Origin: a bacterium
GTDB lineage: Bacteria; Patescibacteriota; Patescibacteriia; UBA9934; GWF2-40-263
DNA: 37,699 bases
NCBI GenBank assembly: GCA_021789915.1
Contig: JAJYIV010000010.1
Location: 1 to 37,699, forward strand
Direction of reading: 5' to 3'
A model generated the notes under the pieces. That model had not been told where the DNA came from. It saw nothing but the letters and a program-made list of their open reading frames with translations, and searched no databases. The position numbers and the translations under genes were made by a program. This document shows positions 4,860 through 21,848 of the stretch, piece after piece (positions within the stretch are counted from its first letter, which is position 1; each line of letters starts with the position of its first letter).

Positions 4860-5222
4860 CTACTGCAACGATGCAGACATTCGATTAAGCATCTTCATAA
4901 CCTCCCGAAGCAGCGAATCGGATGCGTCTATGTCGGCTGGATTTCCGAAGGCAAGACGTTTCGTTATTTCCAACTGTGTTTCAAGTTCTGCGCCCGATGC
5001 GTAGGCAACGACGATGAACTGTCGAAAATCCTTGCGTGTGCCACGCCGGCGCCCTTCTGCGATATTCGACGGAATGGAGACGGATGCACGCCTCATTTGC
5101 TGGCTCAATCCGTACATCTCCGACTTTGGAAATGCTTCGGTCAGGCGATAAATACAAACGACAAGATCCATGGACTTTTGCCAGACGATCAAGTCTTTAT
5201 GTGTCTGCACTGTATCTCTCAC
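4860..5222 (-). CDS. four-helix bundle protein (23S rRNA IVP-like)
   Basis: A 120-aa all-helical protein of the four-helix bundle / 23S rRNA intervening-sequence protein family. It begins [14 protein letters not shown] (the family's W-x-K/R-x-M/A-x-x-L-V motif) and continues [20 protein letters not shown], then PSNIAEG, the family hallmark. Function is unknown; some members lie inside 23S rRNA intervening sequences, but this copy is free-standing between pgk and eno. Base composition is visibly less GC-rich than its neighbours, and inverted heptamer arrays flank it, suggesting acquisition as a unit. Confidence 0.9.
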
Positions 5223-15093: not shown

Positions 15094-16341
15094 TCATCGG
15101 ATGAACATCGCGTCGCCGAAGGAATAGAAGCGATAGCCCTGCTTGACCGCCTCCTCGTACGCGGCGAGGACGTGCTCGCGCCCCGCGAACGCCGAGACGA
15201 GCACGAGCAGCGTCGACTTCGGCAGATGGAAATTCGTGATCAGCGCGTCCACGATGCGGAAGCGGAACCCGGGCGTGATGAAGAGATTTACGTCGCCGAC
15301 AAAGCCGTCCGCGGGGAGCGGGCAACCGGCAACAACCCCTAACCCCTCCTTGGAAAGGAGGGGACGCGAATAGACGCGTCCTCCCCTTTCCAAGGGGAGG
15401 CTGCCTGCTGGCCCTTCTTCGGCAGGCGGAGGGGTTGCCGCGGCAGCGCCCTCGAGCGCGCGCACCGTCGTCGTGCCCACGGCGATCACGCGGCGGCCCT
15501 CCGCCTTGGCCTGGTTGATCCGGCGCGCCGTGTCTCCCTCGATCTCGACGTATTCCGCGTGCATCTCGTGCTCCTCGATCGTCTCCGTCTTCATCGGACG
15601 GAACGTGCCGATGCCGACGTGCAGGACGATCGTCTCGAACTGCACGCCCTTCCCTTTCAAGCGTTCGATGAGTTCCGCCGTGAAGTGGAAGCCCGCGGTC
15701 GGCGCGGCGACGGAGCCGACGCGCTCCGCGTACACCGTCTGATATCGGTCGAACGCGTCCGGCGCGGTTTTGACGTACGGCGGCACGGGAATCTCCCCAT
15801 GCGCGTTCGCGAAGGCGATCACCTCGTCCGCCGTCTGCGCGAAGGAAAGACGCACGCGCCCGTCCTTCTCCTTCGCGACGACCACGCACGACCATCCCTC
15901 AGCGAGCGCGATCACGTCGCCGACGCGCACGCGCCGGCCCGGCCGCGCGAGCGCCTCCCACGACGAGCCGGCGGCCTCCACACGCGGACGCAGCAAAAAA
16001 ATCTCCACGTCCTTGCCGCCACCAGAACTCCCCCCTGCCCCCTCTTCAAAAGAGGGGGTGACGCGCCCGCGCAGACGCGCCTTGAACACCTTGGTTTTGT
16101 TCACGACCAAGACGTCGCCGGCCTGCAGCTCGTCGGCAATCTCGAAGAAGCGCTTGTGCCGCCATGGCGCAACATTTGCCCCCCTGCCAAGGGGGGCTGC
16201 CTGCTGGCCTTCCGTTGGCAGGCGGGGGGTATGAATGCGGTCGAGCGCCATCAGCCGCGACCGGTCGCGCGGTTCCACGGAGCATTGGGCGATGCGCTCG
16301 GGCGGCAAGACATAATCGAATTGCGAGACGGGCGTGGCCAT
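15094..16341 (-). CDS. queA: S-adenosylmethionine:tRNA ribosyltransferase-isomerase with three in-frame palindromic insertions
   Basis: Makes epoxyqueuosine in the tRNA wobble base from preQ1 and SAM. Recognisable core: FDYVLPPERIAQ, DRSRLMALDR, GDVLVVNKTKVFKARL, HGEIPVPPYV, DRYQTVYAERVGSVAAPTAG, then FHF, LHVGIGTFRPM, EEHEMHAEY, RRVIAVGTTTVRALE, VDALITNFHLPKSTLLVLVS, then AFAG, and YRFYSFGDAMFI. At 415 aa it is about 60 aa longer than typical. The excess lies at residues about 36-61, 94-108 and 303-346, each encoded by a GC-rich palindromic repeat and each between conserved blocks. Start ATG 16341 gives the conserved N-terminus. The open frame implies a translated product. Confidence 0.95.
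   Translation of the reverse strand: MATPVSQFDYVLPPERIAQCSVEPRDRSRLMALDRIHTPRLPTEGQQAAPLGRGANVAPWRHKRFFEIADELQAGDVLVVNKTKVFKARLRGRVTPSFEEGAGGSSGGGKDVEIFLLRPRVEAAGSSWEALARPGRRVRVGDVIALAEGWSCVVVAKEKDGRVRLSFAQTADEVIAFANAHGEIPVPPYVKTAPDAFDRYQTVYAERVGSVAAPTAGFHFTAELIERLKGKGVQFETIVLHVGIGTFRPMKTETIEEHEMHAEYVEIEGDTARRINQAKAEGRRVIAVGTTTVRALEGAAAATPPPAEEGPAGSLPLERGGRVYSRPLLSKEGLGVVAGCPLPADGFVGDVNLFITPGFRFRIVDALITNFHLPKSTLLVLVSAFAGREHVLAAYEEAVKQGYRFYSFGDAMFIR
15334..15438. repeat. palindromic insertion element 3 in queA (about 105 bp)
   Basis: Contains hairpins CCCCTCCTT/AAGGAGGGG, GGACGCG/CGCGTCC and CCCCTT/AAGGGG, and the outer pair ACCCCT/AGGGGT. Its first about 33 bp recur almost identically at 20850-20885. 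Its second half resembles 16171-16232. It encodes PLLSKEGLGVV in the queA frame. Confidence 0.9.
16028..16063. repeat. palindromic insertion element 2 in queA
   Basis: Hairpin CCCCCTCTT/AAGAGGGGG within a GC-rich block; encodes TPSFEEGAGG in the queA frame. Confidence 0.85.
16171..16232. repeat. palindromic insertion element 1 in queA
   Basis: Hairpin CCCCCCTGCC/AAGGGGGG plus GCCTGC/GCAGGC. It shares GGCTGCCTGCTGGCC and GGCAGGCGG with 15391-15431. It encodes TPRLPTEGQQAAPLGRG. Confidence 0.85.
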
Positions 16342-19446: not shown

Positions 19447-19481
19447 GCCCGCATGGAAAGATGCGGCCGGGAGGAGAACCC

Positions 19482-20378
19482 ATGCGTTCCTTGTCTGATC
19501 TGCTGCGCGTGATCGGCTATGCGCCGAACGCCTTCGCCTGCGTGCTCGCCCAAACGGCGGCATGTCGGACGGTCGCCATATCCAAGCGCCGTGGCGGCGT
19601 GCGCACGCTGACGATTCCGCCGCCGCCCGTCCGCGAAGCGCAGGCGCGTTTCGCGCGCTGGTTCCTGCACTTCGCGCCCGTTCCCGTCTGCGTGCACGGC
19701 GGCGTGCGCCGGCGCAACGTGCGGACGCTCGCCGAGACGCACCGCTTCGCCGGCTCGATGGTCACGTTCGACCTGCGCGACGCCTTCACACAGGGGACGA
19801 TCCCGCGCGTGCAGGCCGTGTTCCGCCGACTTGGTTTCGATGCCGAAGCCGTCAAGGCGTTCACGCGTCTGTGCACGTTCGGCGGCTGCCTGCCGCAGGG
19901 AGCGCCCTCGTCCAACGCGCTGTGGAACCTCGTGTGCGCCGACCTGGACGCGCAGGCACTTGCCTTCGCCGCCGCGCACGGTCTCGTCTTCACGCGCTAC
20001 ACCGACGAGCTCACGTTCTCGTCGCGCGCGCCGTCCATCCCGCCGGACGTACGCGCGCATGCCGCGAGGGTCATCGCGGAAGCGGGCTTCGCGTCCAACG
20101 CGCGCAAGACGCGTTACCAGGAATCGCGCCGCGGCGCCCTGATCGTCTGCGGCGTCTCCATCCATGGCGGCCTGATCACGCTGACACGCGCCGAGCGCGA
20201 ACGCATCCGCGCCATCATCCATTTGGCCGCCACGCGGCCGGGAATCCCGCGGGCGTACGTCGAGGCGCAGGTGGGGCGCGTGCGCGGCCTGGCCCGCGAC
20301 CGGCGCGGCCGCGCGGGATTGCCGAAGCGGCTGCGCGAGCCGTACGAACGGTATCGCCGCTTGCAGACCAACGGATAA
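19482..20378 (+). CDS. retron-type reverse transcriptase with altered motifs
   Basis: 298 aa from ATG 19482, preceded by GGGAGGAG. RT palm motifs run in order: A, VTFDLRDAF (D97); B, CLPQGAPSSNALWNL (138-150); C, FTRYTDELTFSS, where Y173-T-D-E replaces the usual YADD; then RKTRYQESRRGALIVCGVSI (220s), where VCG replaces retron VTG. Region X, VHGGVRRRNVRTLAETH, parallels retron NAxxH (here LAETH). The first catalytic Asp of motif C is kept. There is no maturase, endonuclease or other domain. It is placed alone between a terminator and a structured non-coding stretch; no classical msr-msd upstream. It may be active with a divergent partner RNA, or decaying. Confidence 0.88.
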   Translation: MRSLSDLLRVIGYAPNAFACVLAQTAACRTVAISKRRGGVRTLTIPPPPVREAQARFARWFLHFAPVPVCVHGGVRRRNVRTLAETHRFAGSMVTFDLRDAFTQGTIPRVQAVFRRLGFDAEAVKAFTRLCTFGGCLPQGAPSSNALWNLVCADLDAQALAFAAAHGLVFTRYTDELTFSSRAPSIPPDVRAHAARVIAEAGFASNARKTRYQESRRGALIVCGVSIHGGLITLTRAERERIRAIIHLAATRPGIPRAYVEAQVGRVRGLARDRRGRAGLPKRLREPYERYRRLQTNG

Positions 20379-20734: not shown

Positions 20735-20938
20735 CCCCCTCCGGCCGGCTGCGCCGGCCATCTCCCCCTGCCTAGCAGGCTCTGCCGGGCCGGATGAGGG
20801 CGCGCAGGCGGGAGGGTTGTAGAAGAGACACTGGGCGCATTCCACGGCAACCACCCCTAACCCCTCCTTGGAAAGGAGGGGACGCAAAAGGACTCGCGCG
20901 GCTGGTTCCTCCCGTCCCTCAAGTCCCTCAAGTCCCTC
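20735..20938. repeat. repeat-filled gap before prmC (palindromic element copy and CCCTCAAGT array)
   Basis: 20735-20812 holds GGCCGGC/GCCGGCC-type palindromes. 20850-20886 is a near-identical copy of the queA element at 15334-15366. 20918-20938 is a 9-nt tandem array CCCTCAAGT. No gene in this stretch. Confidence 0.8.
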
Positions 20939-20939
20939 T

Positions 20940-21848
20940 GTGACTACCTACCTCGAAGCGCTCCAATGGGCCAACGAGATGCTCCGCGCCGCCAGCGGCC
21001 GCTTCGCGTCGCCCATGCTCGACGCGGAGGTCCTGCTCGCGGAGGCGACGGAGATTCCCCGCTCCAGGCTGTTCCTCCGCTTCGATGCGCCGCTGCGGCC
21101 CGACCAGATCGGGCGGTTCGAAGGATTCGTGCGCCGCCGCGCGGCCTTCGAGCCCGTCGCATACATCGTGGGCCGCAAGGAATTCGCCGGCCGTCTTTTC
21201 CGCGTGAATCCGTTCACGCTAATTCCCCGCCCCGCGACGGAGGCGCTGGCCGCCGCCGCCATCGAGCTGGCCGGCGAGGGCAGCCGGGACGCGACGATCT
21301 TCGCCGACGTCGGCACCGGTTCGGGCGCCATCGCCGTCACCCTGGCGGCCGAGACGCACCTGCCGGTCATCGCGACCGACGCGAGCCGCCCGGCGCTCGC
21401 CGTCGCGCGCCTCAATGCCGAAGCCCACGGCGTGGCCGGTCTCGTCGAAGGGCGGCACGGCCGCGGGCTGGAACCGGTGGCGCGCGTGTGCGAGGCCGTC
21501 CGCGCGTCCGGCCGCCGCCTGCCGTACGATCATCTCATCCTCTGCGCCAACCTGCCGTATCTCCCTGAAACGCGTTGGGAGGAATTGCAGGAGGACATTC
21601 GCCGGTACGAGCCGCGTTCCGCGCTTCTGTCCGGCCCCGACGGCCTGCGCGACTATTGGGAACTGTTCCGCGCGCTCAAGAGCCGACGCGCGGTTTTGCC
21701 CATGCGCGCATCCTGCATCATCGAAATAGACCCGACGCAGGCCCTGACGGCGCCGGCGCTCATCCGGCACGCCTTCCCCGCCGCATCCGTGCGCATCGCC
21801 AAGGATATGGAAGGATTCGACCGCGTGGTGATCGTCACGGGGTTGTGA
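20940..21848 (+). CDS. prmC: peptide chain release factor N5-glutamine methyltransferase (HemK/PrmC)
   Basis: SAM-dependent methylation of the GGQ glutamine of release factors. 302 aa from GTG 20940; the upstream open frame runs through repeat sequence and is rejected. N-terminal helical substrate-binding domain, then GRKEFAGRLFRVNPFTLIPR (PrmC G-x-x-x-F-x-G-x-x-F), SAM loop FADVGTGSGAIAVTLA (residues 121-136), acidic ATDAS, and the catalytic tetrapeptide as NLPY (204-207) instead of the usual NPPY. The C-terminus MEGFDRVVIV fits the family. The target prfA lies 3 kb upstream on the same strand. Confidence 0.92.
   Translation: MTTYLEALQWANEMLRAASGRFASPMLDAEVLLAEATEIPRSRLFLRFDAPLRPDQIGRFEGFVRRRAAFEPVAYIVGRKEFAGRLFRVNPFTLIPRPATEALAAAAIELAGEGSRDATIFADVGTGSGAIAVTLAAETHLPVIATDASRPALAVARLNAEAHGVAGLVEGRHGRGLEPVARVCEAVRASGRRLPYDHLILCANLPYLPETRWEELQEDIRRYEPRSALLSGPDGLRDYWELFRALKSRRAVLPMRASCIIEIDPTQALTAPALIRHAFPAASVRIAKDMEGFDRVVIVTGL

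Follow-up and report, generated by a model that had tools for sequence, protein, structure and literature searches.

What are the three extra segments that interrupt queA in an uncultured bacterium with a tiny genome, and how did they come to lie in frame in a housekeeping gene? The host belongs to Candidatus Uhrbacteria (Patescibacteria) and is represented by the 1.06-Mb assembly G000 of 41 contigs, of which contig C11 is the stretch of 37,699 nucleotides analysed here (hereafter the window). An initial annotation had described the segments as three different palindromic insertions in surface loops of an otherwise intact protein and had likened them to Rickettsia palindromic elements (RPE).

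An intact queA gene with three inserts

The gene queA, encoding S-adenosylmethionine:tRNA ribosyltransferase-isomerase (415 aa), occupies positions 15094–16341 on the reverse strand. Its open reading frame runs from the ATG at 16341 to the stop codon at 15094–15096, is free of internal stop codons and stays intact across all three inserts, while the protein matches the Pfam family Queuosine_synth (PF02547) over the full profile (1–322 of 322). Pseudogenisation, which had been named as an outcome speaking against tolerated insertions, is thus not seen, as frame and core protein are both intact. QueA proteins of 30 relatives from the same family and order align with the window protein block by block and reveal its extra segments at residues about 37–57 (insert 1), 94–107 (insert 2) and 301–345 (insert 3). 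A counterpart of the same sequence to inserts 1 and 2 was found in none of the 30; L036 carries an unrelated insert adjoining site 1, L035 has a few additional residues near site 2, and several relatives bear inserts of their own at site 3.

The proposed position between conserved blocks, in surface loops, is supported by structure comparisons. The phmmer alignment with QueA of T. maritima (1VKY) shows a break or gap at all three insert sites. Consistently, an AlphaFold2 model (mean pLDDT 85, with a confident core) places inserts 1, 2 and 3 as low-confidence coil (pLDDT about 60, 63 and 41–50, respectively) between well-predicted core elements. In the third loop, QueA of G020, G017 and G037 contains pieces of the same element type with a different sequence, and since many of their relatives lack such pieces, this loop has probably been hit more than once. 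The insert in QueA of L033 was considered as a palindrome and rejected, being a purine-rich stretch, and the QueA inserts of L046 and L050 contain no strong palindrome.

Palindromic repeat families in G000 and related genomes

At the DNA level, the three queA inserts belong to multi-copy repeat families whose copy number exceeds chance. Searching G000 with blastn resulted in 32 matches for insert 3, 34 for insert 1 and 13 for insert 2, counts that overlap, since a module (GCCTGCC...GGCCAGCAGGCAGCC, 84% identity over 50 nt) is common to insert 1 and the left arm of insert 3. Three insertions are present as described, but two of them are partly related. Within the window, a 21-bp hairpin pattern gave four matches (two palindromic sites, each read on both strands), compared with none in 100 shuffled sequences. 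An Rfam search returned chance matches only, to miRNA and sRNA models far below the gathering score.

All coordinates of the inserts refer to their repeat-conserved parts. Insert 3 (family A; 15321–15440, reverse strand) is an inverted dimer composed of CGGCAACCCC, the left arm, GGACGCGTCTATTCGCGTCC, the right arm and GGGGTTGTTGCCG; in order, CGGCAACCCC is followed by the left hairpin(s), GGACGCG, six bases, CGCGTCC, the right hairpin and GGGGTTGTTGCCG. The left arm (15375–15440, reverse strand) comprises the end CGGCAACCCC, a nested GCCTGCC/GGCAGGC hairpin and a CCTCCCCTTGGAAAGGGGAGG hairpin, and the right arm (15326–15368, reverse strand) reads CGCGTCCCCTCCTTTCCAAGGAGGGGTTAGGGG..GTTGCC. Insert 3 as a whole forms a pronounced double palindrome, with a DNA fold z of -5.4 that none of 200 shuffles matched. 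Insert 2 (family C; 16023–16060, reverse strand) is a perfect 9-bp hairpin, CCCCCTCTTTTGAAGAGGGGGCAGGGGGG, with a fold z of -2.3, and is absent in such form from the relatives. The fold of insert 1 (family B; 16176–16233, reverse strand; CATACCCCCCGCCTGCC...GGCCAGCAGGCAGCCCCCCTTGGCAGGGGGGCAA) is less pronounced, with a z of -1.4 and an equally good fold in 16 of 200 shuffles; its sequence is 97–98% identical to three further copies in G000.

Both full and partial forms of family A occur. A second full copy of insert 3 lies in truB (121 bp, 89% identity), the left arm is found alone as a half element (e.g., C33:16190–16255 and C34:1801–1865), and so is the right arm (e.g., C34:1397–1439, and on C20 and C28). 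An extra right-arm copy within the window (20845–20896, reverse strand) is located immediately upstream of prmC and shares 90% identity with insert 3 over 52 nt. Apart from these families, a further repeat, CCTTCGACTTCGCTCAGGACAGGC (encoding the peptide SLRTGLAGG), lies nested within or close to copies of family B (loop 3 of the L035 QueA; L015, L018 and L022 in G000), and an HPEP..QGKLREGS stretch in queA of G005 looks related to it. Short tandem runs (GAGGGACTTGAGGGACTTGAGGGAC; TCTAGGTTCTAGGTTCTAGG) adjoin several palindrome copies (L012 and L013 in G000, and the window at about 20900–20940).

To assign copies to genes, G000 was read in stretches around the repeats, using a codon model trained on the window genes together with ORF scans, followed by Pfam. 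In-frame copies were found in Pfam-supported cysS, thrS, leuS, truB, mnmA, ksgA, lepA (GTP_EFTU domain) and mltG (YceG), as well as in several glycosyltransferase genes and that of an RlmI-like methyltransferase; an O-antigen ligase gene and a comF-like gene also contain copies. The copy in valS is a weak case, with an 18-bp match only. The early suspicion of a repeat family, based on three insertions in one housekeeping gene, hence proved right, although the family is spread genome-wide over more than a dozen other genes and not confined to queA. In phmmer alignments with solved structures, the match stops at the insert and resumes beyond it in LepA, TruB, ThrS and MnmA, with residues 115–160 of LepA falling between 65 and 69 of 2ywe and residues 120–162 of TruB between 90 and 102 of 1sgv. 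KsgA shows a gap at the insert, and in CysS the insert lies within a variable linker.

The coding signal is high on both flanks of many inserts, and some copies are intergenic. As the copies occupy both orientations and all six reading frames, it is the DNA that spreads and not the peptide. One preferred frame, as would be expected under selection for a peptide, was accordingly rejected. A special design of the element keeping all six frames open found no support either, as three to five frames are open with the bounds chosen.

Across the class, the right hairpin with its tail was detected in 56 of 292 genera and in 65 of 381 genomes, with up to 28 copies, while a reversed-pattern control gave none. 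Full elements in other genera contain two hairpins and have the common ends GGCAACC...GGTTGCC. Elsewhere in the class, in-frame hairpins occur in leuS, ileS, uvrC, cysS, polA and rlmN. Near-identical copies and phylogenetically scattered insertions are in line with the mobile family that had been postulated; its description as active goes further than the data, in which neither a mobilisation event nor a strain polymorphism of the palindromes was seen.

DUF559 genes and their flanking hairpins

The interpretation of the queA inserts is changed by DUF559 genes that are bracketed by the same hairpins. In G000, such a gene (C34:1448–1819, encoding 124 aa) is situated between a right arm (1397–1439) and a left arm (1801–1865), which share 95% and 87% identity, respectively, with insert 3, a closer match than is seen for the arms of all other DUF559 loci examined. 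For inserts 1 and 2, the link to a particular DUF559 gene is less clear. In G008 (C21), a DUF559 gene lies between two full elements in direct orientation, and the exact hairpin pattern occurs within 90 bp of eight DUF559 genes.

Hairpins bracket DUF559 genes more often than control positions: a pyrimidine/purine hairpin was present in 49 of 64 DUF559 flank windows and in 2 of 184 control windows (Fisher P 8e-36). Among the 32 DUF559 genes whose ORF could be found by motif (24 loci with an ORF missed by the motif were dropped), 30 are flanked by a hairpin, 19 of them on both sides. The hairpin criterion was fixed after viewing the order-level loci, and 12 of 13 class-level loci added later still pass it. 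Moreover, the hairpins up- and downstream of one DUF559 gene are alike (mean shared word 12.4, vs 7.0 in shuffled pairs; P about 5e-5) and differ more between genes than within the pair of one gene. At the genome level, DUF559 is present in 48 of the 65 genomes with the hairpin pattern and in 112 of the 316 others (P 1.5e-8, in statistics that ignore phylogeny). That these 112 genomes lack the specific hairpin sequence tested is expected in part, because hairpins differ by lineage. In other phyla, a hairpin of this kind was found at 7 of 10 resolved DUF559 genes. Two loci from other phyla, L309 (G428) and L318 (G423), show DUF559 with matched hairpins on both sides, in frame inside large proteins or at their end.

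By profile comparison, DUF559 is shown to be a relative of homing endonucleases, of the Vsr/EDxHD type as judged from sequence. The DUF559 profile (PF04480) matches the PDB entries 3hrl (endonuclease-like, E 7.5e-36) and 3r3p ("mobile intron protein", E 8.7e-6), the latter of which we take to be the homing endonuclease I-Bth0305I. A weak match to a PADLOC homing-endonuclease model (E 2.5e-4) was obtained as well. Matches of the profile to an enterotoxin and to the cholera toxin B-chain were taken as chance (E at least 0.015).

Like the hairpins, the nuclease gene itself is found in frame inside host genes. In leuS of G006, a hairpin, DUF559 and another hairpin are read through in one open frame, and the same leuS loop, located ahead of the motif xTTRPDTxFGAT, contains hairpin-only inserts in G004, G011 and G107. 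Further in-frame DUF559 insertions are located inside tsaC/sua5 (G353) and elp3 (G277 and G295; named from its radical-SAM domains and from reading the sequence). At the G006 leuS locus (L251), the frame continues beyond DUF559 with a NUDIX domain and a stretch of Ns, which limits what can be read of its 3' part. In Chloroflexota, DUF559 lies inside intein-like proteins (L304 in G404 and L307 in G401; inteins judged by eye), which suggests that it also serves as an intein homing endonuclease.

Origin of the inserts and relation to known elements

Taken together, we consider it probable, at roughly 60%, that the inserts in queA belong to a DUF559-linked system as non-autonomous mobile elements that form hairpins (MITE- or REPIN-like) and were spread by this nuclease. 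In such a scenario, the DUF559 protein would cut or nick DNA and drive the copying of palindromes into new sites, and it could likewise copy its own palindrome-bracketed gene. Insertions breaking the frame would be lost, whereas those keeping it in surface loops would survive, the additional peptide being tolerated. A hairpin-only copy could have arisen by transposition of a miniature form, or it could be what remains after recombination between two direct copies has removed the nuclease gene. The mobilising activity of DUF559, a recent movement of the elements and the translation of the inserts are inferred. At two full copies inspected by eye, no clear target-site duplication was found.

An association of this kind does not by itself give a direction, and nuclease genes could also home into pre-existing palindromes. 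In that case the palindromes would move otherwise, e.g., through slippage during replication, through template switching or with the help of another transposase, and DUF559 genes would be passengers. A homing endonuclease could well target palindromes, half copies and tandem arrays are common, and 17 of the 65 hairpin-positive genomes have no DUF559 match, all of which would fit this explanation. Matching hairpins at one DUF559 gene and differing hairpins between genes are, however, what is expected of element ends, and the DUF559 form and the hairpin-only form share one leuS loop. We therefore regard the passenger role as unlikely, though worth serious consideration.

Mobilisation of REP/REPIN elements by RAYT or IS200-type Y1 transposases, as in Pseudomonas, appears rather improbable. 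The architecture with inverted hairpin dimers and half copies is indeed REPIN-like, and Y1_Tnp genes are present in 15 of 25 relatives. Nevertheless, the single Y1_Tnp match in G000 is a truncated IS200-type TnpA at a contig end (C14:9–290) with an unrelated end hairpin. The hairpins are also absent from the flanks of ten Y1_Tnp loci of relatives, yet present at nearly all DUF559 genes, and many of the copies are intragenic, in contrast to typical REPs.

If surface loops had expanded as coding sequence in a lineage-specific manner, or if slippage products had been retained for their peptides, with palindromy being incidental, it would be clear why the inserts sit in loops and in frame. This is highly improbable, as unrelated genes carry DNA that is 97–98% identical, oriented either way and in more than one frame, and as some copies are intergenic: the same DNA read in different frames and orientations means that the nucleotide sequence is conserved and not the peptide. 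For families A and B this explanation is refuted, while the shortness of insert 2 (38 bp) leaves it some room. Just as little credence can be given to an artefact of metagenome assembly or binning, or to pseudogenisation, since despite the 41 contigs of G000 the frames are open, with a high coding signal on both sides of many inserts, and independent genomes carry in-frame inserts at the same queA and leuS loops.

Palindromic repeats residing in frame in functional, often housekeeping genes are the common feature of RPEs, and it is found in the queA inserts too. The comparison drawn initially is hence apt as an analogy, whereas the inserts differ from RPEs in host phylum, GC-rich pyrimidine/purine double hairpins, the use of six frames and the link to DUF559 (RPEs being compared here by their description). 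The initial annotation had furthermore stated that such elements are not known to have been described in this kind of genome. While the literature searched describes none for Patescibacteria, such insertions are known beyond Rickettsia, as several phyla were described to have REPs in uvrA, truB and tRNA synthetase genes, and truB is also an RPE target (PMC3733652).

The REPs tagged with GTAG or CGTC (Di Nocera 2013, PMC3733652) resemble the present elements as inverted dimers of short hairpins, some of them intragenic, which hit tRNA synthetases and truB. The CGTC type is defined by a terminal CGTC tag, a stem of 8–9 bp, a loop of 4–5 nt, A/T pairs at the stem base and a CCA tail (PMC3733652). 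Family A shares CGTC beside its hairpins and the 9-bp stem, but has a 3-nt TCC loop, a C-G stem base and a TTAGGGG tail in place of the CCA tail; membership was rejected on stem base, loop and tail. Further differences are the missing CGTC in copies from other genera, the many intragenic copies and the nuclease partner.

The nearest functional model is that of REPINs beside RAYTs (Bertels and Rainey 2011, PMC3116915), i.e., non-autonomous hairpin pairs that adjoin the gene of a dedicated enzyme and are matched to it. Here, the enzyme is of the Vsr/homing-type DUF559 and not a Y1 tyrosine transposase, and copies enter coding sequences. Membership was rejected, as no repeat-flanked Y1_Tnp gene was found in G000 or among the ten loci of relatives and the copies are not predominantly extragenic. 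The elements correspond to MITEs in being short, non-autonomous and multi-copy, with GGCAACC...GGTTGCC as terminal inverted repeats and full copies in several genera. With Vsr-like (EDxHD) homing endonucleases of the I-Bth0305I type (3r3p) they share the DUF559 profile match and a gene lying inside other genes; in our case, this gene is in frame in host proteins without intron or intein and flanked by palindromes that spread on their own as well. Mitochondrial double-hairpin and hairpin-forming elements (e.g., PMC2800124), as far as the accessible part of that source describes them, are likewise hairpin repeats invading small genomes, but the present ones are bacterial and nuclease-linked.

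In-frame palindromes in housekeeping genes were therefore already known, and the DUF559 nuclease partner is what is new relative to the literature searched, in which no paper links DUF559 to palindromes in its title or the beginning of its abstract. Whether DUF559 and pyrimidine/purine palindromes constitute a distinct and widespread class of mobile elements in Patescibacteria, and probably in Chloroflexota and Cyanobacteria, is in our judgement evenly balanced. In this class, a homing-type nuclease would spread hairpins in trans and insert its own bracketed gene in frame into essential genes such as leuS, tsaC and elp3, with neither intron nor intein. If true, a function would be assigned to a widespread "domain of unknown function", and a nuclease-driven counterpart to REPIN-RAYT systems would exist. 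It would also account for the unusual peptides (PLLSKEGLGEV, SPPYQGE and similar ones) that recur in conserved proteins of uncultured bacteria—a warning to annotators that such loops are repeat-derived—and imply that mobile DNA within essential enzymes is tolerated by very small genomes.

Two other genes of the window may be mentioned. A reverse transcriptase ORF (19461–20378, forward strand; RVT_1 E 1.7e-9) lies just upstream of the right-arm palindrome and prmC and has weak similarity, below the NCBI cut-off, to the retron St85 reverse transcriptase. Between the genes for enolase and pgk, a gene on the reverse strand (4860–5222) encodes a four-helix-bundle protein of the type found in 23S rRNA intervening sequences.
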